46,724 nt of DNA from IMG/VR virus record IMGVR_UViG_3300009537_000027, positions 1 through 46,724 of that record. One strand, written 5' to 3'. Origin of the DNA: a virus. Of this stretch, positions 643 to 43,816 are shown in pieces. Both the position numbers and the translations under genes were made by a program. The notes beneath the pieces are model-generated. The model saw nothing but the letters and a program-made list of their open reading frames with translations. It did not search any database and was not told the origin of the DNA. The stretch's first letter is position 1, and every line of letters starts with the position of its first letter.

Positions 643-929
643 GTGAAAGTCCCTCTAGCTAGTGTGTACACAGTTCCTGTGGTGGTGGCAGTTGCAGTTC
701 CTGTGCCTGTAGAGGTGACCCCTCTCACGATGAAGAAAGAAGAGCCTGTTCCTAAGACCCAGCCCCCTGCTCCGTGAGAGCCGGCTTGAGCAAGTGCCAG
801 CCCCGGCCTCATGTACACACAAGTAGGAGGTGTGGTCTCCACAAAGCAGTTTGCTAGCAAGCCTCCCCTCGAGAGTGTGCCATCTCGACTTTCCAAGGGG
901 GTTTCTTCCACGAGAGGAATCTTCGGCAT
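639..929 (-). CDS. Short protein resembling the N-terminus of a P22 gp10-like tail hub
   Basis: A 96-residue protein. ATG at 929 overlaps the stop of the gp4-like gene, and its own TGA overlaps the next ATG. It begins MPKIPLVEETP, followed by SRDGTLSRGG, LANCFVE and VYMRPGL. This is the arrangement seen at the start of P22 gp10-like proteins (PLV, SR, N.Y.E, PGL). A short beta segment (GGWVLGTGSSFFIVRG) follows, then a Thr/Gly stretch and a stop. Full family members are about 470 residues, so this is only the opening strands. The next gene repeats the same motif, and the remaining propeller is encoded at 44878-46284. It could be a working separate subunit or a remnant of a duplicated hub gene. 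Translational coupling suggests it is expressed. Confidence 0.75.
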   Translation of the reverse strand: MPKIPLVEETPLESRDGTLSRGGLLANCFVETTPPTCVYMRPGLALAQAGSHGAGGWVLGTGSSFFIVRGVTSTGTGTATATTTGTVYTLARGTFT

Positions 930-1933
930 CAGGGCCTCGTGAAGGGACTTCCCACATCAGTTGCCTCTCGCCCAGGTTCAAAGCTCAGGCTCGTCTCTTG
1001 CGGGTTGAGGTTCACGCCTTCGCGGACTGCGATCTCCCAGTGCTGGGCAAGGTCTGCGGTCCACGGCCTGCCAAACTTCGCAGCGCACCTCCGGGCAAGC
1101 TCCCACTCGAGAGCTGCGAAGTACTCTTGGGGGTACGCAATATCATCACTTCCCGCAGCGTTGTCATAATCCTCCGCTGGGTAGATGACTGTGAGGTGGA
1201 GTGTCTTATACACGTTCGCTGCGGCAAAGTTGAGGGTCACAGCCGTTGTGAGGCGCAAGGGCTCGATGAGGATGGCTGTGGGGTCCCCGGAGGCGAGCTT
1301 CTGGGTGACGAGCTCGTACTGCTGGACATCTGTGTACACTTCAAGGGGGATATCTATGGGCTGGCCCGGCGTGCTCCAGTCCCGCAAGCTCACCGCCTCG
1401 AGCTCCACGAAACGCTGTGCCTTGGAGGTGTAGGTGAACACAACGGCTCCGCTGTTAGCAGCCCCAATGCTGTTGGCCGCGATTGTCACTTGAGTGGAGG
1501 AATCCACCGTACTGATTGTACCCCAACCCAAAGCTCCCGTCGCAAGGACAAAACCAATCGTGTCCGCGGCTGTCATGCCTGTGGTACTGGCAAGGGTTAT
1601 CGTAGTGGCGCTTGCTCCCTTTGCAGCTGTGAGAGTTGTAACGACGGGGCTTACTGCGGCTCGAGCGTCTGCGCTTGCAGGGCCGACAAGGTAGCGAGCT
1701 TGCCCGGAGACGAAGAACATCTCGACCCTCTGGCGGGTCCACACCTTGAGGCCAGGGAACTTGTCGCTCTGGCCTTGCCACTGCTTCACAAGGAGGTTGA
1801 GAGTACGGAGCATGGTGGCAAGATCATTGCTGTCCAGGCTCTGGTTGTTCTCCGCAACTCCAATGTCCTCCGCTGCAGAGGTGATGATCTGAAGGGCAGT
1901 GACGCTGTAGTCCCAGCTTCCACTAGTTGCCAT
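929..1933 (-). CDS. Head-to-tail adaptor, P22 gp4-like
   Basis: A 334-residue protein likely to sit under the portal as head completion/tail adaptor. The first 90 residues match the gp4-like pattern: a helical start with SAAEDIGV, LNLLVKQWQGQ, an aromatic-rich stretch around VWTRQR, then the Y-x-V/I-G strand (ARYLVGP). Residues about 95-170 look like an inserted beta domain (TTITLASTTGM, TIGFVLATG, TYTSKAQRF), a kind of module often inserted in phage adaptor and tail proteins. The C-terminal half returns to helix (YFAALEWELARRCAAKFG), as in other family members. ATG at 1933 overlaps the preceding gene by 11 bases. Its position between capsid genes and the tail hub supports the role; the family call rests on pattern and context only. 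Confidence 0.72.
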   Translation of the reverse strand: MATSGSWDYSVTALQIITSAAEDIGVAENNQSLDSNDLATMLRTLNLLVKQWQGQSDKFPGLKVWTRQRVEMFFVSGQARYLVGPASADARAAVSPVVTTLTAAKGASATTITLASTTGMTAADTIGFVLATGALGWGTISTVDSSTQVTIAANSIGAANSGAVVFTYTSKAQRFVELEAVSLRDWSTPGQPIDIPLEVYTDVQQYELVTQKLASGDPTAILIEPLRLTTAVTLNFAAANVYKTLHLTVIYPAEDYDNAAGSDDIAYPQEYFAALEWELARRCAAKFGRPWTADLAQHWEIAVREGVNLNPQETSLSFEPGREATDVGSPFTRP

Positions 1934-4175
1934 CTTGACTCCTGGGGTAATCTCTTCGAGATCCGCTGAAGTCTACAGCCTTCTCTCGTTCAGCGGTGGT
2001 GTAGTATTCTTTCTCTCCAAACAGTTCTATCATCTTTCTACGAATAGGACTGTCTTTGGCGTTGGGGAGTCTATGTAGGCCTGTATTCCCCAAATCCCCC
2101 ACCTCTCCCCACTTCCCACTGCGCACAAAGTCCTGCACGTAAGGGAGGTACTCTGCGTTGGGAGCACGGTTTTGCTTGCCTTTGATTTGGAGGATGTCGT
2201 TGTATTCAGTCCAGGGCAGCTCAGCCCCAGCTTCGTCCACAGCCGCACCAACCTCCACCGTCACATGACTCTTCCCCTTTGCATCCCTCAGGGAGTAGAT
2301 CTTCGACTCTCCAGATGCCACCCCCTCACAGTACCCTCCCACACAGTGGCCCATCTGGTTGCCTTCTTGAGCGAGCTGGCCGGCGAGGTGGGCTTCTTCG
2401 GGGGTGCTTCCAGTAACCCACTCGTTTGTGTAAAAACTCTTAATAGGTTTACCCGCAGCATCTCTCGCTATTAAGATACTCATACGAGCGTGGTCGCGGT
2501 CATAATCCATAGTTCTAACCAGAATATCTAACTCAGCTTCTGTAGGAGGACTTACAGCTTTTGCTTGCTCCTCCGTCAGCCTCTCCGGCTTCTTCAGCTC
2601 CACCCACTTCATGCCCCGCAACGTGCCCGGATTCTGCGCACTGTAGTCCTTGTACACCGGCAAGTCCTTCATGCTTGCCGCAGCAGCTCTCTCCATCTCC
2701 TTCGCCACGCGGGCATCGTTCACGGCGGTCTCCTTCACTGCGCGCACGAGATCATACTGCTGGAGCTTCTCAGGAGGCACATTCTGCCGGAGGTAGTCTC
2801 CGACGTGGGAGAGGTAGGAAGTGATAGCTTGAAGCCTTGGAGTATCACTGTAGTCCCCATGATCCTTACCCCGGTCTGAGATTTTGTAGACAGGCTCCTT
2901 CACGGGCATTGAGTCTTTTATAGCCACAGTCTCTATATCAGACTTAATTATGGAGTCTGTCAATTCCTCCCACCTCTTCACTCCCTCTCCAAACGGCACC
3001 TCCACATCCTTCAGCGGGTCTGTGGCTGTGCCAGCATGCTTGTTGAGGTAGTTGGAGATGGCGCGAGTAGCCCACGCGCCCTCCATCTCGCCGCCAGTTG
3101 CATTAAACGGAATAGGTATAGCTCCCCTCGGATAGTGCACAGGAGGAGCAAGCCTGTCTACTAGGGGCCTACCTAACCTCTCCACCGCCTCCGGGTGCCA
3201 CATCCCCCCTTTCTCCTTCACCGCCTCTGCCACAGCCCCCGGAGCCTGCTTGATAATCTGCATCTCTCGGGGGAACTGGGCATCCTCCGTAAGGCTCGGA
3301 GCGAAGTTCCTAAGCTCCGGGTCCATCAGCCGAGCCTCCGCGTTCCGCGCCCGGACCTCTGCAGCATTCTTCCAGTAGTCTGGATCATCCAGCTGCGTCC
3401 CGTAGGAGAAGCCTTCTGCCTTGTCCATTGCGTGCTGGACCTCGTGCTCCATGACTGTGCGGCGGCCTTCAAAGCCCGCAGCTTCTGGTCCCCGTACAGC
3501 CCCTTGAGCATAGATCCTGTTCGTGCCTGGATGGAATGAGCCTTCCCGGGGGCCTTCCTTACGCAGGGACCTCAGCACAAGATCCGGGTAAGCTTGCCGG
3601 AACTGCTCCATAAGTTCCTCTTCTGTCTTCACAAGAGGGAACTCAAAGATCGGATGCCCTTCCTTGTTCAACTCCACTCCGTGTGTGCGCCAGACTTCTT
3701 GGGGAGGCTTCCCTTCTGCTAGGGCTTTCTTCCCGAGCAAGAACCTCATGAGGGTCTTTCCTCCAAGGTTCTCTGCCGCCTTCGCACCCCCCATCACGCC
3801 GAGGGCATACGGCGTGGCGTCCAGAGCAACTCCCAAGTCTCCCAGCCTCCAGTCCGGCTTGCCTCCCTGCTCTGCCTCCACAAGCTCTTCCAGCGCATCT
3901 TTCCTCCCCTCCACACCGAGCTTACCAAATAGGTTCCAGAGTTTCTTGGCATAGGTCTTAGCTTCGTCTGCAGGCTCTTCCGCGGCAGTCCTCGCTACGT
4001 TGAGGCGAGCTTGGTTCTGGGTGGGCGCAGCGAAGCGGCGGGCGTTCAGGAGAGGGTCATTCACGCTCTGCTGACCTCCCACTTGCTCTGGCATCCGAGC
4101 CCACTCAGGGCGGGCTTGCTGAATCAGCCCCTCAGTGTTCCGAGACTTGAGGATAGCCTCAAGCAGGGGGTCCAC
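1923..4175 (-). CDS. Large virion-associated protein with HExxH metallopeptidase-like motif and PcfJ-like C-terminus
   Basis: A 750-residue protein starting GTG at 4175, overlapping the previous stop (TAGTG). Residues 238-250 contain RRTVMEHEVQHAMD, an HExxH zinc-metallopeptidase signature (H244, E245, H248). Residues about 609-690 (GHCVGGYCEGVASGES, IYSLRD, VTVEV, QIKGKQN) resemble the C-terminal domain of PcfJ-like proteins. The middle is mostly charged helix without a recognised domain. This mixture resembles polyvalent proteins carried by phages and plasmids, which are thought to enter the recipient cell with the DNA. It lies in the late operon between the glycosyltransferase fusion and the adaptor, so it is made with the virion and could be packaged. 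Protease activity is inferred from the motif; a third zinc ligand is not obvious. Confidence 0.7.
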   Translation of the reverse strand: MDPLLEAILKSRNTEGLIQQARPEWARMPEQVGGQQSVNDPLLNARRFAAPTQNQARLNVARTAAEEPADEAKTYAKKLWNLFGKLGVEGRKDALEELVEAEQGGKPDWRLGDLGVALDATPYALGVMGGAKAAENLGGKTLMRFLLGKKALAEGKPPQEVWRTHGVELNKEGHPIFEFPLVKTEEELMEQFRQAYPDLVLRSLRKEGPREGSFHPGTNRIYAQGAVRGPEAAGFEGRRTVMEHEVQHAMDKAEGFSYGTQLDDPDYWKNAAEVRARNAEARLMDPELRNFAPSLTEDAQFPREMQIIKQAPGAVAEAVKEKGGMWHPEAVERLGRPLVDRLAPPVHYPRGAIPIPFNATGGEMEGAWATRAISNYLNKHAGTATDPLKDVEVPFGEGVKRWEELTDSIIKSDIETVAIKDSMPVKEPVYKISDRGKDHGDYSDTPRLQAITSYLSHVGDYLRQNVPPEKLQQYDLVRAVKETAVNDARVAKEMERAAAASMKDLPVYKDYSAQNPGTLRGMKWVELKKPERLTEEQAKAVSPPTEAELDILVRTMDYDRDHARMSILIARDAAGKPIKSFYTNEWVTGSTPEEAHLAGQLAQEGNQMGHCVGGYCEGVASGESKIYSLRDAKGKSHVTVEVGAAVDEAGAELPWTEYNDILQIKGKQNRAPNAEYLPYVQDFVRSGKWGEVGDLGNTGLHRLPNAKDSPIRRKMIELFGEKEYYTTAEREKAVDFSGSRRDYPRSQDGN

Positions 4176-4555
4176 TACATCCCCCTCGGAGGAATGAACC
4201 CATGCCGTCGCATCATCTGCATCATGAGCTGGCGCTGGAACTGGTCGAGGGCTTGAGGGTCTGTGTCATCCTGCGTGCCTATCCGAGGGTTGAGGCGTTG
4301 CTGGAGCCTCTGCTGGAACATCGCGGCCCCCTGGCGCATCCTCTCTGCTTGCACCTGCTCAAGCCTCTGCCTCTCCCCCATGAGGACAGACTGCTGGTGC
4401 TCGCCTTGCTGGTCTGGATGCCGAATGGCCTTGTCGATCTGGCTGAGATTCCTCGGATCAAGGTCCTCTTGCTCGTTCTGGCCCTCTGCGAGGTCTAGCC
4501 TCGGGGGCACTATCTCCCGCATCCGGTCGATCATCTTTCTGTACGGACTAGGCAC
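4175..4555 (-). CDS. Gln/Met/Arg-rich late protein, unknown function
   Basis: About 126 residues. GTG at 4555 is preferred because GGAGG lies six bases upstream; an in-frame TTG at 4561 sits too close to that site. It overlaps the end of the methyltransferase/glycosyltransferase gene by eight bases, and its stop overlaps the next start. The N-terminal part is basic (YRKMIDRMREIVPPR), followed by an acidic-polar linker. A long Gln-rich helix (MGERQRLEQVQAERMRQG, MFQQRLQQRL) ends in MMQMMRRHGF. It is probably mostly helical and able to form a coiled coil. No family was recognised. Location suggests a minor virion or assembly protein. Confidence 0.7.
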   Translation of the reverse strand: MPSPYRKMIDRMREIVPPRLDLAEGQNEQEDLDPRNLSQIDKAIRHPDQQGEHQQSVLMGERQRLEQVQAERMRQGAAMFQQRLQQRLNPRIGTQDDTDPQALDQFQRQLMMQMMRRHGFIPPRGM

Positions 4556-6149
4556 GAGCAACCTCCAATTTCTTGATCGGGATTGGTGCGGGAATCACGT
4601 TCGGGACTTTCAAGGCCCTCCCAATCGCAGTCCAACAAGCCTCTGGTGTGAGGTCCACCTGGCACTGGGCTGTGCCCTCCCAGTACTGCCCCTTGTCCTC
4701 ATTCCTATTGCAATGCTCCCAGGTGTAGTGGAGCTTGTGGCAGGGGTAGCAGGGAGTCTTCGTGCTGAAGAGCGCGATGGTGTTGTTCCAGTCCCGAGTG
4801 AGGTTCTCATGACTACTGTGGCTGAGGAATACGATCTTGGGCATAGGCTCCATGCACATGCCGCTCAGGACACCAGTCTCTGGCCCCACGATGAGGTCAC
4901 AGAGTTGAGCCATCGCGAGGGTCTGTCGGATGGACCACTTGCCGGCAGTCCGGATGATCCGGGGTTCATTCTGCCAAGGCTCATCCAGCATCAAGCTCTT
5001 CGCATCCCCCACAGTGATGATCTTGCACTCAGGATACACGAGAAGCATCCGGGCGTAGATCTGGTCGATGTGAGGCCAGACCTTGTGGACGCTGCTGCCA
5101 TTCAGGGCCCAGAGGAGCAAGGGGGCTGCCTTGAACTCAATCCGCCTCTCCAGTGCCCAGGCCTTCTCCTCCTCCGTGGGGAAGAAACGAGTCTCAGGCC
5201 TCTTGTACGGCACCTCCGCAAGTTCGTGCTGGAACTCCACGTAGTTGTAGTTCAGGTGCTTGTCTCGCACAGCCTTGGGCCACCGACTCGGCATCCGGTC
5301 GTTGAGGCTCAGCCAGGTGCCTTCCACACTTTCACTCAGGTTAATCCACCGATCATACTTCTTGCTCTCACTCCCCCAGAACGAGCCGAGAGCAACGTTG
5401 GGGACCTGGTCTGTGTCTTGAAGAATCACCCTGTCGATGTGGGGGTCGTGCTGGATCACCTCGAAGGCTCGAGGCGTGCTGTAGAGAGTGATGTGGAAGC
5501 CCTGCTTCTTGAGGGCCGGGAACACGCTGCAGGCCTGCAAGCTATCCCCCCAGGCACCATACCGCACAATGCCACAAGTCTTCGCGGGCCGGGGCTCCAT
5601 GTAGCTCATCTTGTGTCCCGCACCTGCCTCGAGCTTGCGGAACACCTGGAAGAAGCTATACTCCATAGCCTCGCTGCGCTTCTCACTCCGGAGGCAATCC
5701 CAGTCCGGGAACTCATCCATCACGTCGAGGATGTCGGCCTCCACAAAGTCATGCTTGTGGTCGGTGTTCGCTCCTGGCTGGCCGATGTTGGGGTAGAGCT
5801 CCTTGTGGGGGAGGTACAAACAGAGGTGGCCTCCCACCTTCACAAGCCTCCACCACTCCTTGAGTGCCCCCTTGTAGTCCTCCACGTGCTCCAGCATGTG
5901 ACTACTAAAGATGAAGTCACAGCTCTCACTCGCGAACATGGGGAGGCTGCAAGCATCCGGCACAGTGAGATCTGGATTCATAGGAGTGCCGAAGAGCTGG
6001 CAATCCTTCTTGTTATCCACCCCGATGAAGTGCGGGAAGGCCTTGTGAGGCCCGCAGCCTAAGTCAAGGCCGAAGCCTCTCGTGTAAGGCACAAGCTCCC
6101 AAAGCATCTTCCCGGCTTCATTCCCCTGAGGATCTTCCGCACGCCACAT
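4548..6149 (-). CDS. Fusion: SAM methyltransferase + GT9 heptosyltransferase-like glycosyltransferase
   Basis: A 533-residue protein with two parts. Residues about 25-125 form a class I SAM methyltransferase: motif I GLDLGCGP at 27-34, acidic FIGVDN at 41-46, LPMFASESCDFIFSSHMLEHVED at 69-91 and WWRLVKVGGHLCLYLP at 99-114. Residues about 190-490 look like a GT9 (ADP-heptose:LPS heptosyltransferase family) domain, with GIVRYGAWGDSLQ at 193-205, a second Rossmann-like half (IITVGDAKSL) and the donor-site-like segment DLIVGPETGVLSGM. Known GT9 enzymes move heptose from ADP-heptose to LPS core. This phage also carries heptose-nucleotide genes at 32.9-37.4 kb on the other strand, which supports that substrate. 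It sits in the late operon, so it would act during virion assembly, on LPS or on a virion protein. Methylation of the transferred sugar is inference. Confidence 0.8.
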   Translation of the reverse strand: MWRAEDPQGNEAGKMLWELVPYTRGFGLDLGCGPHKAFPHFIGVDNKKDCQLFGTPMNPDLTVPDACSLPMFASESCDFIFSSHMLEHVEDYKGALKEWWRLVKVGGHLCLYLPHKELYPNIGQPGANTDHKHDFVEADILDVMDEFPDWDCLRSEKRSEAMEYSFFQVFRKLEAGAGHKMSYMEPRPAKTCGIVRYGAWGDSLQACSVFPALKKQGFHITLYSTPRAFEVIQHDPHIDRVILQDTDQVPNVALGSFWGSESKKYDRWINLSESVEGTWLSLNDRMPSRWPKAVRDKHLNYNYVEFQHELAEVPYKRPETRFFPTEEEKAWALERRIEFKAAPLLLWALNGSSVHKVWPHIDQIYARMLLVYPECKIITVGDAKSLMLDEPWQNEPRIIRTAGKWSIRQTLAMAQLCDLIVGPETGVLSGMCMEPMPKIVFLSHSSHENLTRDWNNTIALFSTKTPCYPCHKLHYTWEHCNRNEDKGQYWEGTAQCQVDLTPEACWTAIGRALKVPNVIPAPIPIKKLEVARA

Positions 6150-7015: not shown

Positions 7016-7987
7016 TTAAGCCGCCGAGTCCCACATAACCATGCGGGCTTCGGTTGCTACGGTTTGGACCAGGCCGAAGCCCCCGAGGTAGTACCATGCC
7101 ACGCCCTTACTCCGACCGTAGTCTGTCGGAATCTTGGCGCGCATTTCCTCAGGAATCGCGACCCCCTCTGCGACGGTGTCTTCTCCAAGGAAGAAGATCC
7201 AGTCATTTCCGCTCGCCCAAGCCGTTCCAGTCAGACCCGCGGTGGAGATACCCTTGGGAATGTTGGTTTGCTCAGTGTACCGAACGTTCTCGTACCGACC
7301 GATCTCCGCGTTGAAGATGAGCTGAATGCCCGGCACCGTGTACTGGTGAATGGCTTCCAGATCGTTCTTCAGCCGGCGGAGAGCCGAAGGCCAGGCAATC
7401 GCCGCGTAGTCATCATTCGTATACGCAGGGATGTTCCTTTCCTTCATCAAGTCCACAACGAGCTTGGCGTGTTCTTTCTGGAACGCGATGTTGTTCGTCG
7501 CAGTTGCAGTGCCATTCGTCGTGAGCGTGAGGACGGTGGTGGAGGTGCCTGCGGTCGCCGGGACCACGTGGAGGGGAGTTGCCTTGAACTGCGTCCAGGC
7601 CGCACGGTCAAACGTCTTGACCGCATCGTTCCGGAGTGCTTGCATCACCGGCTTCCTCACCTCGAACTTGGAGAGGGCTTCCAGCTTGCCGCTATACGGC
7701 ACGCTGTTCCCGTACTCGTTGATCGTGAGGGTTGCCTGGGTGATGGTGAATTCCGTCTCTGGCATGGTGTTGGTCTCAACAAGCGTCCCGCCTGCTGTCG
7801 CCGCGTTGCCCACCACGTCCCAGGTGAAGGTCTGTCCTTTCCCCTTCCCCTGCTGAGAGGCATCCTTCACATCGCAAAACTGCCGGAACCGCGCCATCGG
7901 CTGCAGAGCTTCTCGCAGCTCGTCGGAGAGGTTGAGCGAGTAGAAGAATCCACCCAGAGAGTTGACGGCCCATAGTTGGCCAGCCAT
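7016..7987 (-). CDS. Major capsid protein (HK97-fold type)
   Basis: A 323-residue protein with good start context: ATG at 7987 and AAAGGAAC upstream. The N-terminus (LNLSDELREALQPMARFRQFCDV) leads into a G-K-G-Q-T-F-T-W strand and TLTINEYGNSVPYSGKLEAL, an arrangement I associate with N4 gp56-like capsid proteins. Long helices with SKFEVRKPVMQALRNDAVKTFDRA and PSALRRLKNDLEAIHQY follow, typical of the A-domain and spine of HK97-fold shells. Length and position (scaffold immediately upstream, then portal) fit the shell protein. The exact capsid subfamily is uncertain; the role is well supported by synteny. Confidence 0.85.
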   Translation of the reverse strand: MAGQLWAVNSLGGFFYSLNLSDELREALQPMARFRQFCDVKDASQQGKGKGQTFTWDVVGNAATAGGTLVETNTMPETEFTITQATLTINEYGNSVPYSGKLEALSKFEVRKPVMQALRNDAVKTFDRAAWTQFKATPLHVVPATAGTSTTVLTLTTNGTATATNNIAFQKEHAKLVVDLMKERNIPAYTNDDYAAIAWPSALRRLKNDLEAIHQYTVPGIQLIFNAEIGRYENVRYTEQTNIPKGISTAGLTGTAWASGNDWIFFLGEDTVAEGVAIPEEMRAKIPTDYGRSKGVAWYYLGGFGLVQTVATEARMVMWDSAA

Positions 7988-9089: not shown

Positions 9090-9405
9090 GTGCTACCTCT
9101 TGGAGTGCGCCGTCCGCCGACTTGCCGGATAGGATCAGGTCTCGAAGCCAGCTCAGGAAGAACTGGGCTCGCCAGATGCGATTTTGCAGGTTCTGAATCT
9201 TGCGTCTCCGCCAGGGCAAGACTCGCGCAAGCTCCTCTTGCGCCAGGATGATTTCTTGGTTAAGACACCCCACGAGGTGCCGCCCAAGATCTCCGTGGAG
9301 GAAGTCTCGGGCCTGCAGGCCGAGGTCCACTTCCGCCACATAAGTGCGAGTCGTGGGATCGAGGCTGTCGAGGAGGTTCTGCAGGTCGAGGTCTGGAGTG
9401 TCCAT
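9079..9405 (-). CDS. Small helical protein between portal and scaffold
   Basis: A 108-residue, mostly alpha-helical protein. ATG at 9405 overlaps the portal stop (TGATG), and its end overlaps the scaffold start by 11 bases. The first half is acidic (MDTPDLDLQNLLDSLD). The second half is basic and amphipathic (EELARVLPWRRRKIQNLQNRIWRAQFFLSWLRDLI). No family was recognised. Position suggests a head-assembly accessory factor. Confidence 0.65.
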   Translation of the reverse strand: MDTPDLDLQNLLDSLDPTTRTYVAEVDLGLQARDFLHGDLGRHLVGCLNQEIILAQEELARVLPWRRRKIQNLQNRIWRAQFFLSWLRDLILSGKSADGALQEVAHED

Positions 9406-11675
9406 CAGCGGGCTCTCGCATCTCCGTTACCACCCGCAGGCTTGGGGGCGTGCTTAGCAGCTTCAGTCATTGCCTTCGCCTTTGCTACAGCAAGGAAGCG
9501 GTCTGTGGCAGCCTTGACTCGAGCCTTGAACCACTCAAGGTCGGCTTGCTGCCGGGCCTTGGCGGCCTCGAGGGCGGCTTGCTGGGCGGCTTTCCTCTGA
9601 TCAAGCTGGAGATTCTGCTGGTTCTCCCGAGTTTTGGCTGCGAACTCAAAGGCTTGCTCTTTCTGCCTGAGGCTGAACTCCATCATAAGCTCTTGCATCT
9701 TCCCATCGAACTCATGCTGGGCCTCAAGTTGCTGCATCTCGAGGGTGTGCTCCTTCTCATCCAGGGCTCTCTCCCGCCTCTGGATGCGATCTTTGTGGCT
9801 GTCCACGATTTGCTGGGCAGTTGCCTCTGCTTGCTGCATGAGCTGCTGGGCCTGGACGAGCCGAGGATCCACTTGGGTGAAGAAGCGGGCGCTATCCTTG
9901 AAACCAGCCAAGCCGTAGAGTTCCTTACGCACTTCTGGCAAGTTCATGTCGGAGGGAGCCTGCTGAGAGATCTGTCCATACGCCCCAGTTGCCTGCATGA
10001 ACTTCTGGAACCTCTGCTCTGGATCTGTAGCTCCCATGCCTACGTTCACAGCGAGAGTCAGCTCCTGATCAAGGAGCTTGTCAAGGTCTGGATTCTGCTG
10101 GTAGTGCTCCCAGGCTCCCGCCTTCTTCGCCGCAATCGCGAGCACGACCTCATCACTCTCGTACTTCTGCTCGAGCTTGATGAGTTGCCTAAGGGTGGGC
10201 TCCACCCAAGTCTCAACCCAGACTCGGAAGGTGTATTCTGTGAGCATGTTGCTGCCGGCCCCCATCATCTTCATGCCGCCCACAGTCTCATTCATCCGCC
10301 TGTTCGTCATGACGGAGCTGCTGTTCAAGCCACCGCCTTCCAAGTCGTCGAAATCCGCGTTCAAACGGTCCTGTTCCTGGAAACTGCTGGCGGTGACATC
10401 TGTCCAGTTTACCTCTCTCACATCCTTCTCTGTGTCATTCGCCATTGTGACTCCCCCAGGGACGTTCCTCAAGATCCCTTCCACATCCACATTGGAGCCC
10501 CGGCGCACAATCCAGCGCTTGTTCAGGACGAACTTCACGTTATCCAGCCTCTGGTTCGCAACCTCATTCGCCTCTTGCTGGAGCTGCGAGCCCAGCCCCG
10601 CGAGGCCCTTCGGCATGGCTTGGTGGGTCTCGATCAGGCAGAAGCCAATGGTGACTGGGATCTCCCCTATGGGGAACATCTCCCTCAAGGGCACAGACTC
10701 TGTGAGCAGTTCCAGGTCCTTGAGACTGTAGAAAGTGTAGCACTTCCCCCCACTCTTGATGAAGTTGAGGTGAACCTGAATCACGTCGAATTCATTCACA
10801 GTGCTCGTGACTGTATCTGGGTTCTCCTTGCGGCCATCTCGGGCCTGCTGCACAGGGTCATCTTCTGACATGCGGGCTTGGAGGAGCCTCTCCTTACTCA
10901 CCCGCTTCCAGGGCTTGCCTTGCTTCCCGTAGCCTTTCTCCATCCGGTCGAGCACATCCTGCACGTACATCGGCATTTCGAGGATGAGATAAGGGCTCGT
11001 ACCGACGACATCGAACCACTTGGCTGCGGGATCAAAGTGGACCCGCTGGATGCTCAGCAGCTCGCAGCACGGCTTGTCCACAACAGGGACATCTTCTTCC
11101 AGTTCCAGAGAGATGGGCCCAAGCCCCGGGACCTCCACAGTCTTCTGCACCTTCTGCGGCTCTGTGATGTAGTCCCAGTACTGGAAGGAAGCACAAATCC
11201 CCACGCTCATTGCGTCTTGGAAGGCCCCCAAACTCGTGATGAACCAAGGCACGCCATTCTTCACACTTGAGAGGCGGTACTGGAGGAGTTCCTTGTTTAT
11301 CCGAGCGGAGATGGCTTGCTGCTGGTTCTCCTCATTGATCGGGTCCACGCTCACGACATCAGGGTTGCTGAAGAGAGCCTGAGCTGCAGTGGCCTCGTGC
11401 TTGCGAATCACACTCCGAGTCTTCGGGCGGAAGATTCGGCTGCGGTACTTATACGCATCACTGTTGTACTTGCTGTCTCGAGGATGCTGGGAGTTGAAGA
11501 GACGGAGGCCATCCTCCCAGATCTTCCGGTAGTTGTTCTCTGCGTAGGTGGTACTACGCTTGAAGGCGTCCTTGGCGAGCTTCATCCAGGGATCTGGGCT
11601 CGAGGTAGAACCACTGGCTCCGCCTCCCATCTCGTCTCCCTGGGCTTGCCCAGGAATAAGATTCGTGCTAGCCAT
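9405..11675 (-). CDS. Portal protein
   Basis: About 756 residues from ATG at 11675; an upstream in-frame start at 11723 would run far into the previous gene. The N-terminus carries portal features: PWMKLAKDAFKRS, a conserved RKIWEDGLRLFNSQHPRDSKYNS segment and FRPKTRSVIRKHEATAAQALFSNPD. The middle has a typical stem/wing pattern (ECFPIGEIP-like strand REMFPIGEIPVTIGFC, then GLGSQLQQEANEVANQRLDNVK). The last 120 residues are a long Gln/Ala/Lys coiled coil (EEKEHTLEMQQLEAQH-like, ENQQNLQLDQRKAAQQAALEAAKARQQADL), comparable to the barrel extension of podovirus portals. It lies between terminase and scaffold. Dodecameric assembly at one capsid vertex is family knowledge. Confidence 0.85.
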   Translation of the reverse strand: MASTNLIPGQAQGDEMGGGASGSTSSPDPWMKLAKDAFKRSTTYAENNYRKIWEDGLRLFNSQHPRDSKYNSDAYKYRSRIFRPKTRSVIRKHEATAAQALFSNPDVVSVDPINEENQQQAISARINKELLQYRLSSVKNGVPWFITSLGAFQDAMSVGICASFQYWDYITEPQKVQKTVEVPGLGPISLELEEDVPVVDKPCCELLSIQRVHFDPAAKWFDVVGTSPYLILEMPMYVQDVLDRMEKGYGKQGKPWKRVSKERLLQARMSEDDPVQQARDGRKENPDTVTSTVNEFDVIQVHLNFIKSGGKCYTFYSLKDLELLTESVPLREMFPIGEIPVTIGFCLIETHQAMPKGLAGLGSQLQQEANEVANQRLDNVKFVLNKRWIVRRGSNVDVEGILRNVPGGVTMANDTEKDVREVNWTDVTASSFQEQDRLNADFDDLEGGGLNSSSVMTNRRMNETVGGMKMMGAGSNMLTEYTFRVWVETWVEPTLRQLIKLEQKYESDEVVLAIAAKKAGAWEHYQQNPDLDKLLDQELTLAVNVGMGATDPEQRFQKFMQATGAYGQISQQAPSDMNLPEVRKELYGLAGFKDSARFFTQVDPRLVQAQQLMQQAEATAQQIVDSHKDRIQRRERALDEKEHTLEMQQLEAQHEFDGKMQELMMEFSLRQKEQAFEFAAKTRENQQNLQLDQRKAAQQAALEAAKARQQADLEWFKARVKAATDRFLAVAKAKAMTEAAKHAPKPAGGNGDARAR

Positions 11676-12036
11676 GCGGGAGGTGCCTCGGGGCCTTCCA
11701 GTACTTCTCAAGCTTGCGATCATCTAGCTCGAAGGTGAGGACTGGGTCTTCTCCTCTGGGCCCGCGAGCGAGGTTGGCCCGTTCAAGCAGCTCTCCTGCA
11801 GCTCGAATATACTCTCTCTTACGAGCTCCCGCATCATGGGCAAGGGCCTCCACTTTGCGCAGCATCCCAATGAGGCCGCGTGCGCCGCTGGCCTCGAGGT
11901 GCTTGATGACGAGGACTCCCCCTTTACACTCGATCCACCAGCTGTGGTTGGGGTAAGCGAAGGTGAGGACTTCGGCGGCTTCCTTGGCGAAGTTATCAGC
12001 AAGGGGGTTATCTCCTATTGCGTGGATGAGGGCCAT
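11668..12036 (-). CDS. Small late protein, unknown
   Basis: About 122 residues from ATG at 12036, which lies two bases after the preceding stop. Upstream in-frame starts at 12075 and 12117 would overlap that gene by 38 or 80 bases, more than is usual here, but cannot be excluded. The protein has an alpha/beta start (MALIHAIGDNPLADNFAKEAAEVLTFAYPNHSWWIECKGGVLVIKHLEASGARGL) and a charged helical end. No family was recognised. The stop overlaps the portal start by eight bases. Confidence 0.65.
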   Translation of the reverse strand: MALIHAIGDNPLADNFAKEAAEVLTFAYPNHSWWIECKGGVLVIKHLEASGARGLIGMLRKVEALAHDAGARKREYIRAAGELLERANLARGPRGEDPVLTFELDDRKLEKYWKAPRHLPHG

Positions 12037-12426: not shown

Positions 12427-13866
12427 TTAGTAGTCCGGGTAGTAAGGAGGGTCATAGGAGGCTTGGCCTTTGTACTCGGCGGCATCTCCAAAAGTGAGGC
12501 AGAAAGCATCTGCCACGTCAGGGCTACGAGGATATCGTTTTTTCATTTCATCTTTGCTTTCTACCTTAATCTTCCCGGTGGAGGTGAAGGAATACTTTGG
12601 CATGCTTAGCTCTGCAAAGAGGATGTCATCCCGGAAGAGCAAGCAGTCCTTCTTCTCAAGCCACTTGCGGGCTCGGAACCATAGCTCGTCCCGGAGGCGA
12701 CTGTACTTGTCGTCCACACTCGCGCTCTCCGCCACATTCACGCCCACTGCGGGGAGGTTCAGCTCGAGCAGGCGGTCTAGGACCCCGCCTCCCACACCAA
12801 TAACATCCACGAAGATGGTGTCTGGGCGGTTCTCAGGAAGGGTCGCCTGCCACTCTGCGAGCACCTTCCCCGCACTCTGCATCGTGTCCATGCCGCTCCA
12901 GCTGATGTGGGCACAGGTCGTGGCGTTGGTCTGGCGCTTGATGAGAACAGTCCGATCTCCGCCGAAGCGGGCCACATCCACCCCCCAGACAGGCTTGCCG
13001 TAGGGCTTGATGTCCCGCACAGCGGCCGCCTCACACAGGTGCATGGGGATCACACTATCCGCCTCCTCGAGAGGGAAGTCTCCCATGACTCGAACGCGAT
13101 ACACGTTGGAATCTCGTCCGTACTGGTGGATAATCTCGTCTCGGAAGAGCTGGCTCTGGAGGGGGCTGTCTTCCCCATTCACCTGGATAGTGCCCCAGAG
13201 GGAACGAAGCTTGTGGTGAGTGTCGTAGAACAGGCCCTCGAGGCGGGTGGGGTTCCCGGCAAGGATAACGAAGCTGTTCTTGTCTGAGAGGGCTCCACGG
13301 GCGGCCTCAAAGATGCTGTCAGCCACACCAGGGGCCTCATCCGCAATCACGAGCACAACGCCTTTGTGAGCGTGCAGGCCCTGCAAGGCATCTGGCTTCT
13401 CCGGGCGTGCAGTCCGGGCAACTGTGAAGGACTCTTCTGGTCTGTCTTTGAGGTAGAACGAATCACTTGTCCACTCGAAGCTTGCTCCCAGCTCCGGCAC
13501 GCGCTCCTTGAGGATGCGGTGCCACTTGCTCAGCTCCGCCCAGAGCACGTCGGACATCTGGGTAGCTGTGGGGGCTGTGCAGCCGCCCTTCACTGGGAGG
13601 AAGCATGTGTGGGCCCAGAGGATCGTGATTGCAAGGAAGGCCGACTTGCCTACACCGTGGCCGCTTCTCACACTGAGCCTGTGGCGAGCGACGAGGAGCT
13701 TGCTGGCCTCCCACCACCACTCAGGCACACCTTCCTCTGCCTCCGCATCCCACGTGGAGGGTAGGCCGAGTGCCTCTGTAGCGAAGAGAGCGGGGCCCCC
13801 TGCCCTCCAGCGAAGAATCCGCTCGCGGGCGGGGTCTAGATCTGCAAGGAGGGGCTGTGCGCTCAT
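12427..13866 (-). CDS. terL: Terminase large subunit
   Basis: A 479-residue packaging motor. The ATPase Walker A is SGHGVGKSA at residues 68-76 and Walker B is VVLVIADEAPG at 170-180 (D176, E177). A coupling-motif-like ILAGNPTR follows at about 201-208. The nuclease domain starts with GVDVARFGGDR at 295-305 (D297), continues with FVDVIGVGGGVLDRL and ends with the acidic RSPDVADAFCLTF. All key acidic positions are present, so both activities look intact. It cuts and translocates concatemeric DNA into proheads through the portal. A headful mechanism is suggested by the lack of visible terminal repeats and by the circular map, but is not proven. ATG overlaps the small-subunit stop (ATGA). Confidence 0.93.
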   Translation of the reverse strand: MSAQPLLADLDPARERILRWRAGGPALFATEALGLPSTWDAEAEEGVPEWWWEASKLLVARHRLSVRSGHGVGKSAFLAITILWAHTCFLPVKGGCTAPTATQMSDVLWAELSKWHRILKERVPELGASFEWTSDSFYLKDRPEESFTVARTARPEKPDALQGLHAHKGVVLVIADEAPGVADSIFEAARGALSDKNSFVILAGNPTRLEGLFYDTHHKLRSLWGTIQVNGEDSPLQSQLFRDEIIHQYGRDSNVYRVRVMGDFPLEEADSVIPMHLCEAAAVRDIKPYGKPVWGVDVARFGGDRTVLIKRQTNATTCAHISWSGMDTMQSAGKVLAEWQATLPENRPDTIFVDVIGVGGGVLDRLLELNLPAVGVNVAESASVDDKYSRLRDELWFRARKWLEKKDCLLFRDDILFAELSMPKYSFTSTGKIKVESKDEMKKRYPRSPDVADAFCLTFGDAAEYKGQASYDPPYYPDY

Positions 13867-32631: not shown

Positions 32632-32943
32632 ATGTCAACCTCCCCTAAGCTTCTGCTGCATACCGGCGTTCTTCGCCGCAAACAGGCGCGTAAGAACGGG
32701 GCTACTCGCGGCCCGTCTGGGGCTCGACACACGTACAGTAAGGATGTGGAGGGCTCGCTGGATGGCTCAGACCCTTGGCTGTGGCCTCGGGCCAGCATGC
32801 CTCCTCGCCGGCTGCCCACCCGCTCTACACAGGCGGCTCCGGGAGAGGCTCCGGCTGCCCGCTGGACGCGGTACGGTCGTTGGAGTGAAGATGGGAGCCA
32901 AGTCTTGAACAACCTCGGAAGGGTGATATATGAGCACCCCTAA
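32632..32943 (+). CDS. Basic protein at the start of the sugar cassette (uncertain)
   Basis: A 103-residue frame from ATG at 32632, overlapping the start of the kinase gene by 14 bases. Its codon use looks more like neighbouring genes than the other frames do. MSTSPKLLLHTGVLRRKQARKNGATRG, then a Pro/Arg/Trp-rich low-order stretch, then WSEDGSQVLNNLGRVIYEHP. No family was recognised and no clear ribosome site is seen. If it is not translated, 32600-32929 is an untranslated leader. Confidence 0.5.
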   Translation: MSTSPKLLLHTGVLRRKQARKNGATRGPSGARHTYSKDVEGSLDGSDPWLWPRASMPPRRLPTRSTQAAPGEAPAARWTRYGRWSEDGSQVLNNLGRVIYEHP

Positions 32944-33754
32944 GCCCATCCTTGTGTGTGGAGACGCGATGGTGGATGAGTACTGGTATGGGGAGGTCTC
33001 CCGTATCAGCCCAGAGGCTCCTGTACCAGTCGTCAAAGTCATCCGGCAAGAGGACCGCTTCGGGGCCGCCGACAACGTGGCTGCGAACATCCAGGCCCTT
33101 GGCGGCACCTTCATCTCAGCTACTTGCAACACTGCTCGCAAGATCCGCCTCATAGGCCGGAACCAGCAAGTCGCCCGTGTAGACTTTGACTGGACTCCCA
33201 AAGAAGAGGACCTCCAGGCCATGGAGCAAGCCTTCCTAGCCGCTCTCCCCAAGTGCTCCATCGTGGTGTTCAGTGACTATGGGAAAGGAAGCCTTGCTCG
33301 TGTAGATGAGCTTATCTTGAGGGCAAAAAACTCCCTCATACTCGTGGACCCCAAGGGGCATGACTACGCTCGGTATGCCGGCGCTGATCTCATCAAGCCG
33401 AATACAGACGAGCTTCGCCAAGTTGTGGGTGGTTGGTCTGACGAGCACCAGCTTAAACGCAAGGTCCAGGCCCTGCTCACAACAGTTCGCATTAAGCACC
33501 TTCTTCTTACTCAAGCCTCAGAAGGTATGACCTTCTTTACTAAAGAGGGAAGCTCTCATTTCCCTTCTGAAGCCCGCGAGGTCTATGACGTGACAGGGGC
33601 TGGAGACACCGCCATCGCAGCACTGGCTGTATCTCTTAGTGAGGAGTACGGCTGGTTACGTGCAGTTCACTACGCTAACAAGGCTGCCGGCATCGTCTGT
33701 GGGAAGTTCGGTACAGCGGTAGCCACAAAGGAGGAAGTCTATGAAGCTGGCTGA
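32930..33754 (+). CDS. hldA: Heptose-7-phosphate kinase, HldA/RfaE N-terminal type
   Basis: A 274-residue PfkB/ribokinase-family protein. SRISPEAPVPVVKV (24-37) is the signature of heptose-7-phosphate 1-kinases. FGAADNVAANIQALGG (44-59) is the substrate strand. TGAGDT (residues 222-227, catalytic D226) is the anion hole and base. Known enzymes convert D-glycero-D-manno-heptose 7-phosphate to the 1,7-bisphosphate. It is shorter than the HldE kinase domain (about 318), but the key motifs are intact. GGAAGG precedes ATG. It overlaps the isomerase gene by 14 bases. With 33741 and 37045 it gives most of the ADP-heptose route; a GmhB phosphatase and HldD epimerase were not found in the window. Confidence 0.88.
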   Translation: MSTPKPILVCGDAMVDEYWYGEVSRISPEAPVPVVKVIRQEDRFGAADNVAANIQALGGTFISATCNTARKIRLIGRNQQVARVDFDWTPKEEDLQAMEQAFLAALPKCSIVVFSDYGKGSLARVDELILRAKNSLILVDPKGHDYARYAGADLIKPNTDELRQVVGGWSDEHQLKRKVQALLTTVRIKHLLLTQASEGMTFFTKEGSSHFPSEAREVYDVTGAGDTAIAALAVSLSEEYGWLRAVHYANKAAGIVCGKFGTAVATKEEVYEAG

Positions 33755-34160
33755 AGCAATCCACAAGGCCAAGCGAATCTACATCATCGGGAATGGAGGA
33801 AGCTTCGCCAACGCCCAACACATCTGTAATGACCTCCTCCTCTGCGGAGTGAGAGCCCACACCCTTGACCCCGCGACCCTCACGGCGATAGCAAATGACT
33901 TTGGCTACGAGTGGGTCTTCGCTCGCTGGCTCAACGTGATGGCAGAGAAAGGAGACCTCCTCATTGCGCTGAGTGGAAGTGGAAAGTCTCCCAACATCCT
34001 CAAGGCTCTCGGCGTGGCTCACCAGAAAGGCATGGAAGTCTGGCCCCTTTTCGGCGCAGCCCAAGGGCAAGACATGCAGACTGCAGAGGAGTTTCAGATC
34101 AAGACTGGCCATGACATCATGCGCTGGTATAAGGGAGAGGCTCGTGACAAACGCGGATAG
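33741..34160 (+). CDS. gmhA: SIS-domain sedoheptulose-7-phosphate isomerase, GmhA-like, short form
   Basis: A 139-residue SIS protein. IIGNGGSFANAQH (15-27) and LIALSGSGKSPNILKAL (74-90) are the sugar-phosphate loops, and ANDFGYEWVFARW (51-63) matches the GmhA pattern NDFGF-x-x-x-F. Family enzymes turn sedoheptulose 7-phosphate into D-glycero-D-manno-heptose 7-phosphate. It is some 50 residues shorter than usual. The position matching catalytic Glu65 of E. coli GmhA appears to be Asp31. The protein ends before the C-terminal helix that carries the catalytic His in E. coli. It may therefore work differently, or with the host enzyme. It overlaps both neighbours and has GAGGAAG upstream. Confidence 0.8.
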   Translation: MKLAEAIHKAKRIYIIGNGGSFANAQHICNDLLLCGVRAHTLDPATLTAIANDFGYEWVFARWLNVMAEKGDLLIALSGSGKSPNILKALGVAHQKGMEVWPLFGAAQGQDMQTAEEFQIKTGHDIMRWYKGEARDKRG

Positions 34161-34644
34161 GGTGGCAGAGTGGCTCGCAAGCAAAGACATCACCCACGCC
34201 TTCGGCATTATTGGAGGGGGGAATGTGGCTTTCTGGAACGCAGTGGTGGCGCGAGGCAAGACCCAGATCGTGTGCTGCCACCATGAGCAGGCGGCCGCCC
34301 AGGCCTCCACGTTCTACTTCCGCACGTGTGGGAAGATTGCCCCCTGTATCGTGACGACTGGTGCAGGAAGCACGAACGCCATTACAGGAGTCATGAGCGC
34401 CTGGATGGACAGTATGCCTCTCCTCGTGATAAGTGGAAACGAAGCATACCAGTACCACGGGGATGGAGGCCGGGGATTCGGCTTCCAGGGGTACTCCAGC
34501 CACCACATCGCGAGGCGCTTCACGAAGCGAGCAGCTTTCCTCACCCCGAGCCGCCTGGACGAAGACCTCGCGGCCGCCCTTGAACCTCGCCAAGGTCCTG
34601 TCTGGCTTGACTTCCCCAAGGATAACCAAAATGCTCTGGCGTAA
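34144..34644 (+). CDS. Thiamine-diphosphate enzyme, N-terminal (PYR) subunit
   Basis: A 166-residue protein from GTG at 34144 with GGGAGAGG upstream, overlapping the isomerase end by 17 bases. NADRVAEWLASKDITHAFGIIGGGN and CCHHEQAAAQAS (catalytic Glu48, which activates the cofactor) are the pyrimidine-binding domain of acetolactate-synthase-type enzymes. IVTTGAGSTNAITGVMSAWMDSMPLLVISG is its second conserved block. The domain ends with GPVWLDFPKDNQ, where a full enzyme would continue; the next gene supplies the rest and starts 14 bases before this stop. It must pair with the following gene product to be active. Confidence 0.85.
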   Translation: MTNADRVAEWLASKDITHAFGIIGGGNVAFWNAVVARGKTQIVCCHHEQAAAQASTFYFRTCGKIAPCIVTTGAGSTNAITGVMSAWMDSMPLLVISGNEAYQYHGDGGRGFGFQGYSSHHIARRFTKRAAFLTPSRLDEDLAAALEPRQGPVWLDFPKDNQNALA

Positions 34645-35710
34645 GCGCCCTCTCCTCATGCTCGGCCACGGTATCCGGGCAGCCGGATGCCAAGACCTCG
34701 CCCCCATGCTCCTCAACCTTGGAGTCCCTGTGGTCGCGAGCTGGCAAGCCAAAGACCTCGTGGACAACAGGCATCCGGCCTTTCTTGGTTGCACTGGCAT
34801 CTATGGGAACCGCGGGGCAAACAAGGCCCTCGCCAATGCTGACCAGCTTGTTGTTCTTGGCAACCGGCTGAGTCTCTGGAACATCTCCGAGCATGGCCTC
34901 GCGGCTAAGCCTGAAGTCCTCATGGTGGACGTGGACCCTATAGAGGCAACTCGCCTCGGGGCTGAGTACCTGAGTACTCCTCTCTCTTTCTTCATCAGGA
35001 ATCTGGAGTCCGCAAGGTGCCCTGAGTGGATGAAGCAGTGCCTGGATTGGAACACAGACTGGCTCGAGCACAGGGACACAGAAGCCTACATCAACTCCTA
35101 CAAGTTCACCAATGCGCTCACTCCCTTCCTCGAGCCAGACCATGTTATTGTGACTGACATGGGGGCTCCCCTCATGAGTGCCCACCAAGTCCTTCGCCTC
35201 AAGCCTCCCCAGCGCCTTATGACGAGCGGGGGCCTGGGAGAGATGGGAGTTGCACTCCCCGCAGCCATCGGAGCTTGCTTCGCGGGAGCCAAGCATGTTC
35301 TCTGCCTTCACGCAGATGGGGGTATGATGATGAACCTGCAGGAACTCCAGACCATCCTCCATCACAACCTTCCCATCAAGATCATCATATATGAGAATGA
35401 AGGCTACCTCATGATGAAGCACACCCAGAAAGCTCAAAGCCTCATACCTCATGGAGTGAGTCCACGCACGGGTGTGAGCCTCCCAGACTATGAGCGCCTT
35501 CTCAGAGGCTGGGGCTTCCGTGTGGGAAGCTTGCGTACATCCACAGACTTTTCCACCCTCATCCCCCAGTTGTTTGGAGCAGAGGGCCCGGCTGCCGTTA
35601 TTTACCACATGGACCCTGAGCAGCCTCTCGTTCCCAAGATGACTTACCGCTACGAGGGGCCGACTCTTGTTTATGACACCCTTTCTGATATGAGCCCCCA
35701 CAAGGAGTGA
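34631..35710 (+). CDS. Thiamine-diphosphate enzyme, central and C-terminal (PP) subunit
   Basis: A 359-residue protein from ATG at 34631, overlapping the PYR gene in another frame. Residues about 8-150 look like the central domain (RPLLMLGHGIRAAG, VVASWQAKDLVDN, ALANADQLVVLGNRLSLW). Residues about 170-350 are the pyrophosphate domain: GGLGEMGVALPAAIGACF, then HADGGMMMNLQELQTIL and LPIKIIIYENEGYLMMKHTQ. The last resembles the Mg-diphosphate motif GDG...NN, with ADG and ENE at the key places. The family uses thiamine diphosphate to join or cleave 2-keto acids. In a sugar cassette, a carboligase building a branched sugar (as YerE does) is one idea; a decarboxylase is another. Confidence 0.85.
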   Translation: MLWRKRPLLMLGHGIRAAGCQDLAPMLLNLGVPVVASWQAKDLVDNRHPAFLGCTGIYGNRGANKALANADQLVVLGNRLSLWNISEHGLAAKPEVLMVDVDPIEATRLGAEYLSTPLSFFIRNLESARCPEWMKQCLDWNTDWLEHRDTEAYINSYKFTNALTPFLEPDHVIVTDMGAPLMSAHQVLRLKPPQRLMTSGGLGEMGVALPAAIGACFAGAKHVLCLHADGGMMMNLQELQTILHHNLPIKIIIYENEGYLMMKHTQKAQSLIPHGVSPRTGVSLPDYERLLRGWGFRVGSLRTSTDFSTLIPQLFGAEGPAAVIYHMDPEQPLVPKMTYRYEGPTLVYDTLSDMSPHKE

Positions 35711-35711
35711 T

Positions 35712-35909
35712 ATGAGCACCCCCCATCTTGAAGTCGTCGTGAAGTTCCCGAAAGAGGTTCCCACAGATGCCCAGGGACCTGCCCTCATGCTCCTCGAGCT
35801 TACCCTTCGCACCCTCACAAGGCTTGATGTAAGAGTCGTGAAGGACCTCATGGGAGATGATTCCAAGCTCCGTAAACTTATGACCATCCAGCAAAGAGAG
35901 GCACTATGA
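35712..35909 (+). CDS. Small protein in the sugar cassette
   Basis: A 65-residue protein, one base after the thiamine-enzyme stop. HLEVVVKFPKEVPTDAQGPALMLLELTLRTLTRLDVRVVKDLMGDDSKLR has an alpha/beta pattern and no cysteines. It overlaps the radical SAM start (ATGA). No family was recognised; a partner or chaperone of a neighbouring enzyme is possible. Confidence 0.65.
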   Translation: MSTPHLEVVVKFPKEVPTDAQGPALMLLELTLRTLTRLDVRVVKDLMGDDSKLRKLMTIQQREAL

Positions 35910-37048
35910 ACTTCGACTACCAGTCTCACACAGAGGTCGGCGGCCAGGCCCTCGCCCTTGACGGCTCGAACATTGGGTATCACAGGGAGCGCGTGGAAGC
36001 CTGGGCTCGCGGAGAGCGAGTCGCGCCTATCTTCATAGATGTAGCCTTCACTCGGAAGTGTCAAGCTGCGTGCTACTTCTGCGCTGCCCAGACCCAGGCC
36101 TCTGAGGGCGGAGTCATCACCCGCGAGCACGCGATGAACTTCCTGGAAGATGCTGCCGAGGTCGGCGTCCTTGCCATGAACTACATCTCAGATGGAGAGT
36201 CCACAATGGTGCCTTGGTACGCAGATGCCGTGGAGAAGGCCACAGACCTCGGCCTTCAGATCGGCGCAGGCACCAATGGCATTGCCACGACGAGACCTGT
36301 GCTGGAGCGTATCCTCCCTCGCCTGGCCTCCTTCCGGGTGAACTTCTCCGCGGGAGAGAAGAAACGCTACGCCGAGATCATGGGCCTTAAGCAAGCTGTC
36401 TACGACATTGTGATAAGGAACATTCGCACTGCTGTCGAGCTTGTTCGGGGCAATGGCTGGCCCTGCATTACAAATATGAACCTTGTCTGTGATCCTGACC
36501 AGTCTGACCAGCTCCTCCCATTCGCGCGCCTGGCCAAGGACCTCGGTGTCCACTACGCAATCATCAAGCACTGTTGGGTAGACACCCACATGGAGAACTC
36601 CCTCCATGTAGACTACAAGGGATATGATCGGATCAAGGAGGTTCTGGAAGAGTGTGAGTCCCTCTCCAACTCCACTACCAAGATCGTGGTGAAGTGGAAC
36701 AAGATGAAGCACAAGGGAGAGCGTGAGTACTCTCGCTGCTTCGGCCCTCCATTCGCCCTTCAGATGTCTGGGAATGGTCTCATTGCTCCCTGCGGGCCCT
36801 TCTTCAATGAAAAGTGGCGCGCCTTTCACATCGGGAACATCACCCAGGCTCGCTTCCGGGACATCTTCCACTCAGAACGCTACTGGGAAGTCATGCGGTA
36901 CATCGCCTCAGATGAGTTTGATCCCCGCAAGCGGTGCCCGAGTGACTGCATGCAGAACCTCACGAATGACTGGCTGTACAAGTACCTCGAGGGCAAGGTC
37001 ACGTTCCCTCTCACACCAGCACCTGCGAATGTGAGATTCCTTGCGTGA
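35906..37048 (+). CDS. Radical SAM enzyme with C-terminal Cys cluster
   Basis: A 380-residue enzyme. CQAACYFC at residues 52-59 is the CxxxCxxC site for the 4Fe-4S cluster. MNYISDGESTMVPWYADAVE is the GGE-like motif, followed by the TIM-barrel pattern IGAGTNGIATTRPVLERIL and FRVNFSAGEKKRY. The C-terminal third has CFGPPFALQMSGNGLIAPCGPF, FHIGNIT, FRDIFHSERYWEVM and RCPSDC, a SPASM-like arrangement for extra Fe-S centres. It may perform a radical step (epimerisation, dehydration, methylation or coupling) on the cassette's sugar or a peptide. Substrate unknown. It overlaps both neighbours. Confidence 0.85.
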   Translation: MNFDYQSHTEVGGQALALDGSNIGYHRERVEAWARGERVAPIFIDVAFTRKCQAACYFCAAQTQASEGGVITREHAMNFLEDAAEVGVLAMNYISDGESTMVPWYADAVEKATDLGLQIGAGTNGIATTRPVLERILPRLASFRVNFSAGEKKRYAEIMGLKQAVYDIVIRNIRTAVELVRGNGWPCITNMNLVCDPDQSDQLLPFARLAKDLGVHYAIIKHCWVDTHMENSLHVDYKGYDRIKEVLEECESLSNSTTKIVVKWNKMKHKGEREYSRCFGPPFALQMSGNGLIAPCGPFFNEKWRAFHIGNITQARFRDIFHSERYWEVMRYIASDEFDPRKRCPSDCMQNLTNDWLYKYLEGKVTFPLTPAPANVRFLA

Positions 37049-43802: not shown

Positions 43803-43816
43803 TTGGGTCTCCTTGG

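Follow-up and report, generated by a model that had tools for sequence, protein, structure and literature searches.

A late phage protein joining a putative zincin-type metallopeptidase to a PcfJ domain with a GNAT-like predicted fold

The window analysed here, the whole 46,724 bases of a virus record, encodes a 750-aa protein that combines a putative zincin-type metallopeptidase with a C-terminal GGxW/PcfJ module. We propose that it is a polyvalent-type late protein carrying exchangeable effectors, and consider the chances of this reading about even: a podovirus-like phage would make the protein late, package it and deliver it with the DNA; in the cell the peptidase would act in trans on another protein, of the host or the virion; and the PcfJ domain would serve as a transferase of GNAT fold, or else be related to one and bind a cofactor or a protein. 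Late delivery is suggested by overlapping genes, colinearity with the related contigs L001 and L012, terminase and portal genes as neighbours, and an N-terminal SLT domain in the relative L017. Action in trans is suggested by the colinear sister phage L096, whose ORF at the same slot keeps the catalytic residues without the C-terminal module, and because this ORF has only the peptidase, the two units may be exchangeable. The genes at the locus are:

929-1933, minus strand: 334-aa downstream late gene (phrog_12985; weak match to the head-tail adaptor phrog_637)
1923-4175, minus strand: 750-aa late protein with LPD23-like stretch, zincin metallopeptidase and GGxW/PcfJ module (ORF, Pfam and alignment)
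4175-4561, minus strand: 128-aa upstream partner gene (its stop codon and the GTG start overlap; L096 and L001 have homologs)

The ORF at 1923-4175 was found as originally predicted and lies on the minus strand, which the original prediction had not given. Its start codon is GTG, supported by the L001 homolog, which opens with MDPLLQAIL where the 750-aa protein opens with VDPLLEAIL. This GTG overlaps the preceding stop (TAGTG), with GAGGGGG immediately 5' of it, and the ATG of the 334-aa downstream gene falls within the 3' end of the 750-aa gene. Further upstream, also on the minus strand, follow genes for a methyltransferase (4548-6149), the capsid (7016-7987), the portal (9405-11723) and the terminase (12427-13866). 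That the protein is made with virion genes, as had been claimed, holds at the level of gene order, as the overlapping genes stand in one row with those for terminase, portal and capsid. The methyltransferase (minus strand) has an N-terminal methyltransferase part and a weak GT9-like C-terminal part, and is conserved in L001 and, with 81% identity, in L096.

Late genes of the same direction reach both ends of the record (1-929 and 46284-46724, minus strand), and a single L096 ORF matches both, with residues 4-45 at 481-615 and residues 210-662 at 44881-46248. The genome is therefore probably circularly permuted, with the record cut inside a late gene; no exact terminal repeats longer than 10 bases were found in the record. 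Elsewhere, at 32930-38336 (plus strand), genes for a PfkB kinase, a TPP enzyme, a radical SAM/SPASM protein and a GT2 protein stand in a row ahead of a tail-fibre-like gene, possibly a surface-glycan or lipid modification cassette.

The N-terminal half of the protein comprises the following features:

3636-3722, minus strand: LPD23-like stretch, residues about 152-180 (alignments A2 and A6 with L001, L002, L022 and L041)
3324-3623, minus strand: zincin-like metallopeptidase core, residues about 185-284 (secondary structure of the model)
3432-3446, minus strand: predicted catalytic motif HEVQH, residues 244-248 (motif position and conservation in A6)
3357-3359, minus strand: E273, predicted third zinc ligand (invariant in 9/9 A6 sequences)
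3234-3320, minus strand: low-confidence linker from peptidase to C-terminal module, residues 286-314 (pLDDT below 50)

HEVQH was located at residues 244-248, where it had been predicted. An HExxH by itself is weak evidence, as it occurred in 557 of 20,000 shuffles of the 750-aa protein and is also present in four other ORFs of the window, which are probably spurious. What lifts HEVQH above chance is the conservation of H244, E245, H248 and E273, not the motif itself. In the nine sequences of A6, with overall identities to the 750-aa protein of 24-38%, the invariant residues are H244, E245, Q247, H248, E254, G259, A271, E273, A276 and R282, and E273 lies in the context Y-x3-A-x-E-x2-A-x5-R in all nine. 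A wider viral search led to 56 ORFs, 44 of them distinct; as HExQH was part of one search pattern, its conservation among the 44 was left uncounted. A third-ligand-like motif, [AG]ExxA[RSEK], followed within 260 residues in 37 of the 44 distinct HExQH ORFs (3.1 expected in shuffles), and from this count and the conservation in A6 a chance HExxH was rejected. Other relatives have HEGRH (e.g. L022 at 228, L035, L057 and L085), which was dismissed as a decoy: no third-ligand motif was found downstream of it, and its GHEGRHR contexts are presumably ParB-like.

The full-length model, of modest confidence in the peptidase part (pLDDT about 45-76), contains helix 185-195, strands 200-203, 213-215 and 220-223, the HExxH helix 235-253 and the Glu helix 265-284, which holds E273. 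The same order of helices and strands is described for the zincin core of polyvalent proteins (Iyer et al. 2017, PMC5512222). Pfam showed no family match over the HEVQH part, and no solved relative was found by sequence for the 750-aa protein, nor a plausible one with a profile of the peptidase part. The search for polyvalent-associated domains that the original prediction had called for gave a divided result: LPD23 (PF18838) had no match at E 1 in the 750-aa protein itself, and its Pfam cut-off is passed by L001, L002, L022 and L041, in the first two just before HExxH. From conserved residues and predicted secondary structure, the N-terminal half is thus a putative zincin-type metallopeptidase of the kind found in polyvalent proteins.

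In L096, gene order is the same from the gene before the large terminase through Hc3, with identities of 77% for the portal, 79% for the terminase, 90% for the capsid, 81% for the methyltransferase and 74% for the downstream gene; the lowest values among the other matched late proteins are 41-44%. The ORF at the slot has 295 aa and 33% identity to the 750-aa protein, over residues 126-315 only, so that homology stops near the linker, and no other match to the 750-aa protein was found in the 18,604-base L096 record. It keeps HELQH and GEIEAEN (the GE motif), and its LPD23 score of 18.3 bits is below the cut-off of 27. L001, with the long form of the protein, follows the same gene order upstream of the slot, and L012, which has the same metagenome number in its contig name, does so downstream. 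Vibrio phage D279 has portal, capsid and terminase homologs, but no match to the 750-aa protein in the stretch examined. Judged by these comparisons, the predicted peptidase is retained and the PcfJ module is gained or lost. The slot form of L096 could be a recent truncation; a dead gene is disfavoured by the intact catalytic residues. As L096 has the peptidase without PcfJ, the peptidase would not be merely a release device for the module, which suggests work of its own beyond freeing its partner. The protease reading originally put forward is strengthened by this sister form and by the third zinc-ligand Glu.

The C-terminal half is divided as follows:

2694-3230, minus strand: residues 316-494, helical first half of the C-terminal module, GGxW...KRWEE (alignment)
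2070-2678, minus strand: PcfJ domain, predicted to fold like a GNAT, residues about 500-702 (Pfam and models)
2328-2351, minus strand: GHCVGGYC motif, residues 609-616 (motif position and A7)
2169-2189, minus strand: QIKGKQN, residues 663-669 (QxxG between strand and helix, where GNATs have their CoA-binding loop)

PcfJ is an uncharacterised family that is widespread in phages and also occurs on some bacterial chromosomes, and in the open-licence literature searched, also for PcfJ together with polyvalent proteins or bacteriophage, no function was found for it. The predicted PcfJ-like block is present, with GHCVGGYC at 609, IYSLRD at 626 and QIKGKQN at 663 (block about 599-690), and Pfam PcfJ (PF14284) matches residues 599-672 with E 1.3e-7 and 32 bits against a cut-off of 25. 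The conserved unit, about 316-705, is far longer than Pfam PcfJ. A viral contig scan with a profile from seven sequences led to 483 encoding stretches, and in the best 80 of the 483, which were kept, the module was found in 84 ORFs (some near-duplicates) of up to 2,510 aa. Invariant in the 66 rows of A7 are W524, G613, R630, H637, T639, E641, Q663, K665, G666 and P672, though for W524 and QIKG this is in part a product of the search, in which those stretches were used. Chromosomal PcfJ genes were found at 61 loci. On the Citrobacter sp. R56 chromosome (L183, 4574-9505) the gene adjoins DUF1266 and DUF4034 genes, with no clear function; related loci occur in Comamonas, Burkholderia and Variovorax.

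A domain model of residues 495-745 alone reached a pLDDT of 90.2 and a pTM of 0.87 (AlphaFold). When matches from the 1000 best PDB candidates were re-aligned, 50 of the 50 listed belonged to the GNAT superfamily, by their titles or, for a few such as isocitrate lyase 2 and FemA, because we take them to be members. The top match was HAT1 (7xay_A), with Z 8.0 and 3.8 A over 131 residues; this Z is at the edge of the tool's middling class, and according to the tool values below 8 are common by chance. The list for the full-length model was likewise one of GNAT folds (HAT1, Z 7.3). No zincin appeared in either list; since the full-length list was filled by the PcfJ part (505-727) and the peptidase was folded only within the full-length model, this says nothing against the peptidase. 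Foldseek against the PDB gave no match at E 0.001 (best 0.02 and 0.14). Among structural matches in BFVD, PcfJ-like phage proteins came first (E down to 1.9e-22), with several acetyltransferase-named proteins lower and with weak E-values.

GNATs bind CoA at the loop between a core strand and a helix, with the motif (Q/R)xxGx(G/A). In the model a core strand ends in QIKG and a helix follows, and Q663-I-K-G666 occupies this place in 66/66 A7 rows, a count biased by QIKG being in the search pattern; the final G/A of the loop is Q in the 750-aa protein. We know of no GNATs with the conserved GHCVGGYC and H-x-T-x-E. Sequence proof of the relation failed, as a PcfJ profile against 30 GNAT sequences led to an hhalign probability of 1.2%, although with such small alignments a missing signal proves little. 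Profiles of the two halves brought only weak and implausible matches to solved structures, and one of these, a short GHCVGGYC-like stretch in SecB, was taken as coincidence. From the models, the PcfJ part, no more than a label in the original prediction, likely has a GNAT-like fold.

The peptidase and the PcfJ module make at least two unrelated domains in one late phage protein, as is characteristic of polyvalent proteins. The proposed membership in this group was supported by LPD23, by the zincin and by relatives with ART-PolyVal, InPase, ParB, SLT and sigma-70 domains. When 29 ORFs were scanned together, PcfJ was detected in 29/29, ART-PolyVal in 9/29, and LPD23, ParB_N and a GDSL lipase in 1/29 each; ORFs scanned separately revealed InPase in L004, N-terminal SLT in L017 and sigma-70 regions 2 + 4 in L014 and L017. 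Zincin and module share one ORF in 6 of the 84 (L001, L002, L022, L023, L033 and L041), a number from a peptidase profile of three sequences only, which may miss others. Fusions of sigma-70 regions 2 + 4 to the module were found in two of the 40 relatives scanned, namely L014 (5817-13214, 2,465 aa) and L017 (4962-11015, 2,017 aa, the one with the SLT transglycosylase), and searches with the sigma stretch for further fusions returned the same two contigs and one stand-alone sigma-like gene. These may be virion-delivered sigma factors. The large ORFs of L014, L046 and L067 each contain two copies of the module, the second being weaker in L014.

In other viruses the module most often neighbours terminase genes: among 70 neighbour ORFs, 25 match one terminase-large-subunit family, five a portal family and one a family annotated as 'released from the phage upon host infection'. 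In L008, L009, L010 and L013-L017 an Hc3 homolog is followed downstream by a long ORF that contains the module. The genes of roughly 400 aa before the large ORFs matched none of the late proteins of the window, and PHROGs were uninformative; 'ejection slot' is therefore positional, as the intervening genes are not tied to known ejection proteins. From setting and domain partners together, we infer that the 750-aa protein would be packaged and delivered with the DNA.

The peptidase might instead be a processing enzyme that cleaves partner virion proteins, or the linker at 286-314 within its own chain, at head assembly and so frees PcfJ, with no host target. Autoprocessing is discussed as a likely role of polyvalent MPTases by Iyer et al. 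(PMC5512222), the same idea has been proposed for P1 DdrB-type polyvalent proteins, and the low-confidence linker parts the two halves near the point where L096 homology stops. Still, in L096 the catalytic residues are intact although a C-terminal module that could be freed is missing, and we regard this explanation as unlikely; processing of other virion proteins in trans is possible. A late protein that stays behind, as a head-assembly factor or chaperone in the infected cell using degenerate enzymes for binding, would suit a gene between capsid and adaptor-like genes, outside the tail/ejection-like cluster 41116-44881. Against it, the catalytic residues are invariant in A6 despite the low overall identity, and relatives of the module carry ART, SLT and sigma-70 domains suited to a newly infected cell, which makes it quite improbable.

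A dedicated anti-defence effector, an idea also in the original prediction, which immediately on entry would use its peptidase or PcfJ to disable a restriction, CRISPR or abortive system, would agree with the general expectation for polyvalent proteins (PMC5512222) and with the faster divergence of the slot protein in L096 than of every other matched late protein, which resembles an arms race. Such divergence is non-specific, however, and the libraries searched, PADLOC not among them, contained no defence-related sequence match; none of the results speaks specifically for this role, which appears distinctly unlikely. The preferred reading of a delivered, trans-acting peptidase with a GNAT-related partner can be widened to the family: PcfJ proteins would then be divergent GNAT-fold transferases, delivered by virions as exchangeable modules beside a trans-acting zinc protease, with sigma factor, ADP-ribosyltransferase or lytic transglycosylase in relatives. 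In this wide form it is doubtful; if true, it would mean takeover of host proteins or transcription at entry.

With the predicted fold, a named domain gains a first activity that can be put to the test (acyl-CoA binding or transfer). The colinear L096 form with only the peptidase separates self-cutting from action on other proteins for polyvalent metallopeptidases, and its slot protein would be a small natural peptidase of less than 300 residues. The two sigma-70 fusions suggest a virion-delivered transcription factor, analogous to the virion RNA polymerase of N4.

Compared with known systems, the protein resembles the polyvalent zincin MPTase proteins (Iyer et al. 2017, PMC5512222) in being a multidomain late protein with an HExxH helix followed by a Glu helix, and in having LPD23-bearing relatives and others with ART-PolyVal, InPase, ParB and SLT. 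It differs in the PcfJ module attached to the peptidase and in the occurrence of the peptidase alone in a sister phage; in the main text of PMC5512222 the terms PcfJ and sigma are absent. With PcfJ-like proteins (PF14284) it shares a stretch passing the Pfam cut-off (599-672) and the BFVD structural matches, whereas its conserved unit extends over about 316-705, with the helical GGxW...KRWEE half in front. To GNAT acetyltransferases such as HAT1 the PcfJ part is similar in the fold that the models give it and in where its QxxG loop stands, behind a core strand, but the loop reads QxxGxQ instead of QxxGxG/A and the relation is without sequence support. The PcfJ-like protein of phage DSL-LC04 (OR003939.1), also from a late gene, is 43.5% identical in pieces within 597-743; unlike the 750-aa protein it is encoded between terminase and portal, at another position in the late cluster, and it has no LPD23 match and does not align to the HExxH stretch. 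The protein is thus ordinary in kind, as a polyvalent late protein, and new in combination within the searches made.
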